DNA from: Sinomonas atrocyanea
GTDB lineage: Bacteria; Actinomycetota; Actinomycetes; Actinomycetales; Micrococcaceae
Length of the DNA: 37,437 nt
Direction: 5' to 3'
Assembly (NCBI RefSeq): GCF_030812675.1
Contig: NZ_JAUSTE010000020.1
Span: 1-37,437, forward strand
Shown: in pieces, positions 1,961 to 37,342 of the stretch
How positions within the stretch are numbered: position 1 is the first letter of the stretch
How the letters are laid out: every line of letters starts with the position of its first letter
Notes under the pieces: generated by a model
The model's database searches: none
What the model was told of the DNA's origin: nothing
What the model saw: only the letters and a program-made list of their open reading frames with translations
Position numbers and translations under genes: made by a program

Positions 1961-2752
1961 CTACCGTCCGGAGTCCTGGGCGTCCCCGCCCTGCCCCTCT
2001 CCTCCTTGGCCGCCTCCAGCCCCGCTCCCGCTGGGGGTCGGGCGCGGGGTGCCCTGCGAGGGGCGCGCGGGCTCGGTGGAGTCGCCGGAGGCACGCCCCC
2101 GCGCGCTGCCCTGGGGCTGCTGCTGGTCCTGCCGGCCCTGGTCCCCGGCGTCGCGGGGCGCCGGGGAGGCCCCGTCGCCCCGGCCCTGGACCGGCCGGGC
2201 GGCGCCCCGGTCTCCGGCCTCCCCCGCCCCGGCGACGCCCGCGGCGGCGCTCGCCGCGCCTGCGCCCAGCGGGGGCGCCGGGGTACCGGTGGGGGTGCCG
2301 GTGGGCGCGGCCTCGCCCGGGGCGAGCGGCTCGGCGGCGTGGGCCAGCGAGGGCCCGACGGCGGGGCGCAGCGGTGCGTGCCAGTCCCAGGCCTGGCCCG
2401 TCATCGCGGCGACGCCGCTTGCCCCGAGGCCCATGCCCGCCGCGACGAGCACGCCGACCATCGCCCCGCGGTGGCGCTTGATCCAGCGCGGCCTCGGGGC
2501 GGCGGCGGCAGCCTCGGCCTTCCGGGCCGCCGCCCGGGTGAGCGGGAGCACGACGGCGAGCGGCGCCGTCGCACTGTCCGTCGCCTGTCCGCCCGCGAGG
2601 AGGCGTGCCAGCTCGCCGGTGGGCGCGGGCGGCTCGGCGAGCCGGAGCGCGGCGATCCGCCCGAGCGCGGCCGTCAGCGCGGCGTCGTGCTCGAGCCCCT
2701 CCTCGGCGAGCACCGCCTGCACCTGCGTCCTCTTCACGCTGATCGGACCCAC
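1961..2752 (-). CDS. Putative membrane-anchored sigma-associated protein (anti-sigma-like)
   Basis: This 263-residue protein overlaps the 3' end of the sigma-factor gene by 19 bases. It has a GTG start and a good ribosome site (GAGGAAGA). The N-terminal ~85 residues are a helical, probably cytoplasmic domain. A basic stretch (PRPRWIKRHRG, about 92-102) leads into a single membrane segment (GAMVGVLVAAGMGLGASGVAAMTG), and the remaining ~130 residues are low-complexity Gly/Ala/Pro/Gln, presumably outside the cell. This topology and the coupling with a sigma gene suggest an anti-sigma or sensor partner. No zinc-binding HxxxCxxC motif is visible, so it is not a classical ZAS anti-sigma. The role is inferred from context. 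Confidence 0.6.
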   Translation of the reverse strand: MGPISVKRTQVQAVLAEEGLEHDAALTAALGRIAALRLAEPPAPTGELARLLAGGQATDSATAPLAVVLPLTRAAARKAEAAAAAPRPRWIKRHRGAMVGVLVAAGMGLGASGVAAMTGQAWDWHAPLRPAVGPSLAHAAEPLAPGEAAPTGTPTGTPAPPLGAGAASAAAGVAGAGEAGDRGAARPVQGRGDGASPAPRDAGDQGRQDQQQPQGSARGRASGDSTEPARPSQGTPRPTPSGSGAGGGQGGEGQGGDAQDSGR

Positions 2753-3291
2753 TCTTCCTCTGCTACGTGCTCCCGCAGGGCCAACAGGGCCCTGCGCTGG
2801 AGCTGCTTGACCGCGCCCGGCGTCTTGCCGAGCACGGAGGCGACTTCCTCGATGCTCAGTTCCGCCACGATGCGGAGCGTGAGCACTTCCTTCTGGTCCC
2901 CCTTGAGCCTGCCGATCAGGATCTCCGCATCGGTCTGGCCGGCGGCGAGGAGGGCATCGTGCTCGGCGGAGGCGGTCTCGCGGGTGTCGAGCAGCGGGTC
3001 GTAGTCGACGATCCGCGGCCGGCGCTCGGTCCGGCGGTAATGGTCCACCACCCGGGCGTGTGCCACGGAGAAGACGAGCGTCTTCAGCCCCGCCGCCCCG
3101 CCCGTGATCGAGCCAAGGCGCGGGAGCACCGCGACGAACACGTCCTGCGCGAGCGCCTCGGGGTCGTCCACCCCCCGGGCGGACATGTAGCCGATCACCG
3201 CGGGTGCCAGCGAACGGTAGACGAGGGTGAACAGCTCGTGCTCCGTCAGCGCGCCCGGCGCGAGATCGTCGTCGGTGATCGATTCGAGCAC
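2734..3291 (-). CDS. RNA polymerase sigma factor, sigma-70/ECF-like
   Basis: This 185-residue protein carries sigma region 2 (residues ~13-80: LVYRSLAPAVIGYMSARG, then DPEALAQDVFVAVLPRLG and VVDHYRR) and region 4 (about 120-175: LKGDQKEVLTLRIV, then LSIEEVASVLGKTPGAVKQL and QRRALLALRE). That is the two-domain ECF layout. I chose the GTG at 3289-3291 because AGAGGA precedes it at proper spacing and because the extra 38 residues of the longer frame do not look like protein. The target promoters are unknown. The downstream gene overlaps it and probably encodes a regulator of its activity. Confidence 0.85.
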   Translation of the reverse strand: MLESITDDDLAPGALTEHELFTLVYRSLAPAVIGYMSARGVDDPEALAQDVFVAVLPRLGSITGGAAGLKTLVFSVAHARVVDHYRRTERRPRIVDYDPLLDTRETASAEHDALLAAGQTDAEILIGRLKGDQKEVLTLRIVAELSIEEVASVLGKTPGAVKQLQRRALLALREHVAEEEWVRSA

Positions 3292-3627
3292 GGCTATCCT
3301 CTGGATTCCTGACCCTGGATTCTGAAGGCAGAACCCGCCCAGTCTAGCCGTGGGCCAGCTGCGCCGACGGCCCGACTGGGCAGAGAGGAAGCCGGGCTGG
3401 AACATGATGGGGGACAGATTCCAGCCCGGCTTACATCCACGTAATCGTCCGCGGCCCCCGGAAGGTTACGCGGATTCCGGATTTTCTTTCGGGAGCCCCT
3501 TCCGGCCCCGCTGGGGCCGGCGCGGCGCGGTCCGCCGCCGGCGCGGTCGGTTACTTTCCGCCGCCCACTGGGTACGGCGTAGGTGGTGTTCCTGGATCCG
3601 GCACGGCAAGGACGGGGTGATGTCTCG
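3292..3627. other. 336-bp intergenic region between divergent sigma and phosphatase genes
   Basis: No convincing protein gene is present. The region holds the two-hairpin RNA candidate at 3389-3469. After it comes a very GC-rich stretch (3500-3560) with CCGGCCCC/GGGGCCGG self-complementarity, and then the ribosome site of the phosphatase gene. Promoters for the sigma gene (minus) and the phosphatase (plus) must lie here, but I see no clear -35/-10 pair. Confidence 0.6.
3389..3469 (+). ncRNA. Candidate structured RNA, copy A (two hairpins, possible kissing loop)
   Basis: Hairpin 1 has perfect 14-bp arms (AAGCCGGGCTGGAA 3389-3402, TTCCAGCCCGGCTT 3419-3432) around a loop containing GATGGGGGACAG. 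Eight bases on, hairpin 2 is closed by GTAATC (3441-3446) and GGTTAC (3464-3469), six pairs with one G-U, around a loop with CCCCC. The G5 run of loop 1 can pair with the C5 run of loop 2. A second copy lies at 37198-37273 on the minus strand with identical spacing and a different but still paired stem 1. Strand is inferred from the GTAATC/GGTTAC wobble and from copy B. Not matched to any family I recognise. Confidence 0.6.
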
Positions 3628-37197: not shown

Positions 37198-37273
37198 GTA
37201 ACCTTTGGGGGGCGCCCGACGATTACAGCGGTGGACGTCGGATCGGAACCTGTCCCCCATCGAGTTGCGATCC
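37198..37273 (-). ncRNA. Candidate structured RNA, copy B
   Basis: Reading the minus strand, hairpin 1 has arms GGATCGCAAC (37273-37264) and GTTCCGATCC (37249-37240), one mismatch, around TCGATGGGGGACAG. Hairpin 2 is GTAATC (37226-37221) with GGTTAC (37203-37198) around a loop with CCCCCC. From GATGGGGGACAG to GGTTACGCG it aligns without gaps to copy A at 3406-3472, 51 of 67 bases identical, with most differences in the stem-1 arm and linker. It lies beyond the terminator of the partial minus-strand gene, so it would need its own promoter or read-through. Confidence 0.6.
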
Positions 37274-37290
37274 GGCGGACACTGTCCACT

Positions 37291-37334
37291 GCAGCCGGGC
37301 CGGAGCCCTCCCCCAGACGCTCCGGCCCGGCTGC
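37291..37334 (-). terminator. Terminator of the partial gene at the window end
   Basis: GCAGCCGGGCCGGAGC (37291-37306) and its exact complement (37319-37334) form a 16-bp stem with a 12-base loop, 8 bp past the minus-strand stop at 37343. No T-tract follows, as is common in very GC-rich genomes. Confidence 0.75.
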
Positions 37335-37342
37335 GGGTCACT

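Follow-up and report, generated by a model that had tools for sequence, protein, structure and literature searches.

A candidate SigD/BldN-type promoter followed by a C-loop hairpin RNA beside an ECF sigma factor gene in Sinomonas atrocyanea

The two-copy element of Sinomonas atrocyanea is best read as a promoter of the SigD/BldN type, served by an ECF sigma factor, followed immediately by an RNA whose hairpin exposes a C5-C6 loop and which would act on mRNAs much as the mycobacterial F6 RNA does. Drawn from sequence comparison and from the analogy with F6, this reading is considered quite probable. Both copies are found in the window, that is, the whole stretch of DNA analysed (37,437 nucleotides of contig NZ_JAUSTE010000020.1), with the following features:

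1961..2752, minus strand: probable anti-sigma factor gene, judged by position and look (one hydrophobic segment and a Pro/Ala/Gly-rich end)
2734..3294, minus strand: gene of the ECF sigma factor, downstream of copy A (the open frame used in searches; likely GTG start near 3291)
3389..3469, RNA predicted on the minus strand: copy A of the two-copy structured element
3389..3432, minus strand: copy A, 5'-terminal hairpin with loop CTGTCCCCCATCAT
near 3434-3436, minus strand: copy A, predicted start site at the conserved RTG
3441..3446, minus strand: copy A, –10 box GATTAC (CGAT with the C before it), after a 17-bp spacer
3464..3469, minus strand: copy A, –35 box GTAACC (from the genome pattern search and the published SigD consensus)
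3470..3491, minus strand: copy A, A-rich-tract stretch upstream of the –35 box, previously noticed on the other strand as a downstream T run (locus L001)
37198..37273, RNA predicted on the plus strand: copy B of the element
37198..37203, plus strand: copy B, –35 box GTAACC
37221..37226, plus strand: copy B, –10 box GATTAC
near 37231-37233, plus strand: copy B, predicted start site
37228..37285, plus strand: copy B, first hairpin with loop CTGTCCCCCATCGA (from the stem finder and the strand comparison of folds)
37289..37336, plus strand: copy B, second hairpin with loop CCTCCCCCAGAC (stem score 18)

The promoter on the transcript strand

The preliminary description of this DNA had placed at both sites a structured RNA of two hairpins, read on the strand opposite to the one listed above, with a possible kissing loop between them. 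Copies A and B were indeed found there, sharing GATGGGGGACAGNTTCC exactly, and their stems are self-complementary with different letters. A pattern search of the 4.12-Mb genome returned these two exact matches only and seven further matches with two mismatches each. None of the seven was among the covariance-model matches of the same genome, where the strong ones were copies A and B only and a third, of 28.6 bits, was the copy A hairpin on the opposite strand. Similarly, GTAACC-N17-GATTAC, with up to one mismatch, matched copies A and B only.

Judged from the alignments, the second hairpin of that description (hairpin 2) is a promoter on the opposite strand and no helix. Read in that direction, GTAACC-N17-GATTAC is preceded by an A-rich tract in most copies and followed a few bases downstream by a conserved RTG. 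In the alignment of a covariance model built from 12 sequences (R2; rows down to 39 bits, three partial rows dropped, hairpin 2 modelled as a helix), the spacing between the boxes, which had been left free, was exactly 17 bp in all 74 distinct rows, and the sequence between them varied throughout. Hairpin 2 pairs in copies A and B, and 430 of its 444 cells were paired in this alignment, yet no cell was compensatory and 14 of the 16 changed cells broke the pair. In alignment A4, GTAAC was present in 47 of 48 sequences and column 5 of the alignment was A in 47/48; the 75 elements behind A4 were gathered with most promoter letters and their spacing prescribed by the search pattern, and only the R2 alignment counts above are free of this constraint. 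An earlier idea of a terminator/antiterminator switch on the originally proposed strand was dropped because the fixed spacing and the sigma locus point to a promoter.

The boxes conform to GTAAC-N17(16)-CGAT, given as the SigD consensus of C. glutamicum in the cited passage of PMC7283102, and resemble the BldN box pair CGTAAC-N16-CGTTGA (PMC2375139, passage cited). Moreover, the sigma and anti-sigma genes adjoin in the C. glutamicum SigD regulon as they do here, whereas the SigD passage of that source makes no mention of a C-loop hairpin like the one present at the elements (PMC7283102). Since hairpin 2 is read as a promoter on the other strand, the RNA would start just before hairpin 1 and run opposite to the direction originally proposed.

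The C-loop hairpin and its strand

The comparison of 48 sequences, copies A and B included, supports hairpin 1 as a true RNA hairpin. Of its 624 cells, 97.0% were paired, and double compensatory changes occurred at 10 of 13 pairs, compared with a mean of 7.6 after shuffling (one of 500 shuffles reached 10); the covariation score was 0.51 against 0.22 in shuffles, none of 500 reaching 0.51, and fell to 0.04-0.12 in slid controls, it being understood that these sequences share kinship and that neither the covariation nor the strand counts below are independent events. The proposal of a family of structured RNAs, its stem covarying and its loop invariant, was borne out for hairpin 1, for which homologues and covariation were found; of the two stems, covariation was confined to this one.

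The orientation given in the preliminary description was reversed by the promoter orientation, the G-U pairs and the folding energy of copy B. Standard pairs filled 605 of the 624 cells on the transcript strand and 573 on the other, and G-U pairs numbered 130 against 60 in the 75 elements, a set that includes one probably false member (L128). The transcript strand folded better in 53 of the 75 and no better in 22. The minimum free energy of copy B was –29.3 kcal/mol on the transcript strand and –18.1 on the opposite one, while the two values were almost the same for copy A (–30.6 and –30.2 kcal/mol). On the originally proposed strand, copy A was more stable than its shuffles (z –4.0) and copy B was not (z –0.02).

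These results also bear on the reading of the element as a two-hairpin RNA on that strand, with an internal kissing loop or as a mobile repeat. Both hairpins do pair in copies A and B and copy A folds well; against this, hairpin 2 is devoid of covariation, that strand gives copy B a poor fold, the G-U pairs favour the opposite one, and the C run required for the kissing loop is not conserved, with C4 or longer between the boxes in 13 of 48 sequences and C5 or longer in 6 of 48 (on the strand of that reading). It is regarded as extremely improbable.

On the transcript strand the loop of hairpin 1 reads CUGUCCCCCAUCA and holds C5 or longer in all 48 sequences. A simple stem finder placed one C-loop hairpin within 250 nt of the promoter in 63 of 74 cases, two in 10 (copy B among them) and none in one, compared with a C-loop hairpin in 4 of 74 controls taken 900-1150 nt downstream, a few of which were empty where the locus ended. 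The stem begins 9-12 nt past the –10 box in the 48 sequences, a nearness that would suit a DNA-level site, namely a promoter with a palindromic operator for a protein and no RNA at all. That explanation is very improbable, given that the stem letters vary freely while pairing is kept, unlike those of an operator recognized by a protein, that the G-U pairs prefer one strand, and that all four mycobacterial relatives checked correspond to a known RNA, F6.

Judging from its sequence, copy B seems to stand alone as an RNA carrying two C5-loop hairpins. The outermost pairs of its first hairpin extend 5' of the predicted start site and may not form; the second lies just past what appears to be the stop codon of a frame occupying the minus strand at the contig end, and the contig continues for only 211 nt after the promoter. 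Copy B is without a clear A tract, and a relative has the same two-hairpin arrangement at its corresponding locus (L072). Separately, leaders with extra tandem hairpins and CCTGCCCCCATCAGG-like loops were seen by eye at L100, L101, L102, L086 and L110.

The sigma factor gene and the element

The ECF sigma factor gene and the likely anti-sigma gene start beside copy A, on the strand opposite to the one originally proposed, and this place is conserved. The sigma protein has a Pfam Sigma70_r4 match; its best NCBIfam models were the BldN family and ShbA, both below their curated cut-offs (79.9 against 206.45 and 77.9 against 209, respectively), and its PDB relatives include SigD region 4. The probable anti-sigma protein gave no match in Pfam, NCBIfam or PDB. 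The genus was searched in 15 genomes, and in each of them the same sigma gene follows the copy-A element; because the element keeps this place, there is no sign of the mobile repeat once suggested. Spread by phages or plasmids was likewise rejected as an explanation: there was no phage match, and three matches came from the plasmid collection, one of which spans most of the query and lies on a 1.0-Mb Arthrobacter replicon. One element locus (L022) comes from Arthrobacter sp. StoSoilB13, by way of a plasmid-collection record.

Of 148 genomes covered by a pattern search, 11 had the element, the Sinomonas genome itself counted. With the R2 model it was found in 163 of 395 family genomes, spread over 15 of 32 genera; none of the 15 genomes of the genus lacked it, and weak matches (e.g., E above 1e-7) are doubtful. 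The sigma gene (E up to 1e-8) was present in 159 of the 395, and the two co-occurred: both in 153 genomes, neither in 226, element only in 10 and sigma gene only in 6 (Fisher p 3e-88, relatedness ignored). All 10 element-only genomes had a best E of 1.7e-7 or weaker, and in one of the sigma-only genomes (G168) the element was found by a later model, R3. The location of copy A before an ECF sigma gene suggests, as far as gene order can tell, that the sigma factor autoregulates through the copy A promoter.

Among the 75 distinct elements, 65 read directly into the sigma gene on the transcript strand, at +119 to +840 nt, and 10, copy B among them, have no sigma gene downstream, although the downstream sequence is short in two of these (L002, which is copy B, 211 nt; L083, 614 nt). 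The frequency of this arrangement, together with the T density past the stem (5.1 per 10 nt compared with 2.1 in the promoter spacer), is what would be expected if the hairpin were an attenuator or a stability element in the sigma mRNA, acting in cis only and on no other RNA. Such a purely cis-acting leader is unlikely, since some copies lack the sigma gene (L087, L088, L095, L104 and L072, which matches copy B) and since, in the 80 listed loci of the wider scan described below, F6 loci included, tblastn with two such sigma factors returned no sigma-like gene at E up to 1e-5, a limit that a distant sigma factor could escape. In addition, the conservation of the loop appears to exceed what a terminator would need. 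Termination after the stem is uncertain because TTTT was present 3' of it in only 12 of 48 sequences.

Some further arrangements were noticed at these loci. A sigma-less copy recurs at one place (L087, L088, L095 and L104), where it faces genes for a CoA-binding-domain protein and a Cys/Met-metabolism PLP enzyme (Pfam, one example each). In several species (L024, L087, L088, L099 and L101), the hairpin is separated from the sigma gene by a frame for a small secreted-looking Ala/Pro-rich protein (MKSVS...). At about 1500-1620 of L126 and L127, a paralogous sigma gene of the same genus has, by eye, a seemingly similar layout with different boxes (GCGTGACC and CGGTTG) and a GC-rich hairpin after them.

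Relationship to F6, distribution and possible targets

F6 (SfdS, RF01791) has a short 5' hairpin with a C5-C6 loop right behind a GTAAC-type promoter, as here: such a hairpin directly after a GTAAC-N-CGAT promoter, a feature worded from the F6 loci, was found at the elements. In contrast, the stems of the window copies differ from those of F6, and F6 lies between convergent fadA2 and fadE5 (PMC8557902, passage cited), whereas copy A precedes a sigma gene, copy B is a two-hairpin RNA, and the fadA2/fadE5 setting is absent from the neighbour genes of both. The Rfam F6 model did not match copies A and B at gathering score, although the Micrococcales intermediates, relatives in two other families of the order, gave weak F6 matches at the element (30.7 and 27.9 bits against 46). 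On this comparison the elements are F6-like RNAs outside the reach of the Rfam model; by analogy, the element would work like F6 without belonging to the family that Rfam defines.

No Rfam family reached gathering score in the whole window, and a permissive scan around copy A gave weak matches to unrelated families only. The 6C RNA (RF01066) has two hairpins. According to a cited title they carry C-rich loops, like copy B; membership of this family was rejected, as no 6C match in the genome exceeded the cut-off and the best (31.5 bits against 47) lay away from the elements. Another RNA with a C-rich loop, Caulobacter GsrN, is described in the cited passage as a stress-sigma-dependent sRNA whose loop pairs with an mRNA leader and whose homologues are often close to a sigma gene (PMC5869019); this likeness is an analogy only, GsrN belonging to Alphaproteobacteria and to another sigma factor. 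In the literature covered, which holds few subscription papers, no paper on the element in Arthrobacter or Micrococcales was found, those on Micrococcales being judged by the titles listed.

Beyond the family, model R3 gave matches in 34 of 396 genomes of the order, the strong ones in Micrococcaceae, and two genomes of other families (G521 and G111) showed the same layout with GTAACG and the loop GGACCCCCGAG. A pattern scan of GTDB for an A tract, GTAACG-N16-CGAT and a C5 run returned at least 118 stretches, 80 of them listed. By record title, 53 of the listed 80 were actinobacterial, and a stem score of at least 9 around the C run was obtained in 52 of these 53 as opposed to none of the 27 others, two untitled 'bacterium' records being counted among the latter. 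Among these listed matches, Crossiella was the lone actinobacterial exception, with a stem score of 8, most others scoring 13-20. Rfam assigned to F6 five of 13 scan loci checked, that is, the four mycobacterial ones and Actinophytocola. Judged by these matches, the promoter-hairpin unit is found across Actinobacteria, although the lack of a gene like this sigma factor near the units of other actinobacteria speaks against the favoured reading. The unit also precedes a dihydrodipicolinate-synthase gene in L178 and L187 (Streptosporangiales) and L403 (a Micrococcales genome), with a ribonuclease J gene next in L178 and L403. The Rfam RNA Ms_IGR-2 was observed downstream of F6, on the same strand, at L170 556-637 (about 30 nt away) and L173 6605-6685 (about 970 nt away).

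In the mechanism favoured here, an anti-sigma partner would release the sigma factor, and the promoter-hairpin units would then be transcribed. At copy A, the sigma factor of the adjoining gene would use the promoter to drive its own gene, with a transcript opening with the hairpin, while at copy B the same type of promoter would make the free-standing RNA with two C-loop hairpins. Termination or processing may set the hairpin free as an sRNA, and the exposed C-rich loop would pair with G-rich leaders of target mRNAs and alter their expression, as proposed from mycobacterial F6. It is also possible, at slightly less than an even chance, that a SigD-type promoter with a C-loop hairpin is an ancient actinobacterial module of which F6 is one case, fused in Micrococcaceae with the sigma gene so that the leader is a regulatory RNA, sometimes with tandem hairpins. 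If so, a mycobacterial sRNA would become part of a widespread sigma-factor-RNA module, the ECF sigma factor of Arthrobacter-like bacteria would gain a promoter as well as an initial regulon and an RNA output, and soil bacteria would offer hosts for the study of C-loop RNAs.

In the passages cited, F6 of M. tuberculosis is reported to be SigF-dependent and to affect GroEL2 and GroES (PMC8557902), and that of M. smegmatis, reported with the SigD consensus GTAACG, represses RpfE2 through an 8-nt loop seed that pairs with a loop of the mRNA leader, as supported by compensatory mutations (PMC8583896). The loop-loop contact once proposed within the element may, by this analogy, take place between molecules instead, and since the M. 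smegmatis loop pairs in this way, the loops of copies A and B are expected to act on G-rich mRNA leaders. The target searches gave no convincing conserved G-rich target. The rpf leaders, an idea taken from the M. smegmatis F6 paper, were rejected: a motif-found frame was obtained in 15 of 29 rpf loci, and a G5 run was absent from 350 nt of the seven with a visible region before the signal peptide (L289-L295), one other locus (L309) having such a run. In L289-L295 the rpf-like gene leader holds a long conserved block that is possibly a riboswitch. In 15 genomes, ATGGGGGACA occurred 138 times against 37 for its reversed control, with elements accounting for at least 16 of the 138, an excess that may be coding because the control differs in codon content. 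The 55 stretches with non-element matches in 7 of the 15 genomes represent every such match, and 54 were compared, L377 being off-centre and left out; conserved antisense sites were rejected, as the group common to all 7 genomes is an in-frame Met-Gly-Asp and the other shared groups look coding. At about 695-715 of L353 and in three relatives, TTGTCCCCCATGG was observed, which is made of the loop letters themselves and not their complement and which, by eye, spans the likely start codon of a tRNA-synthetase-like frame.
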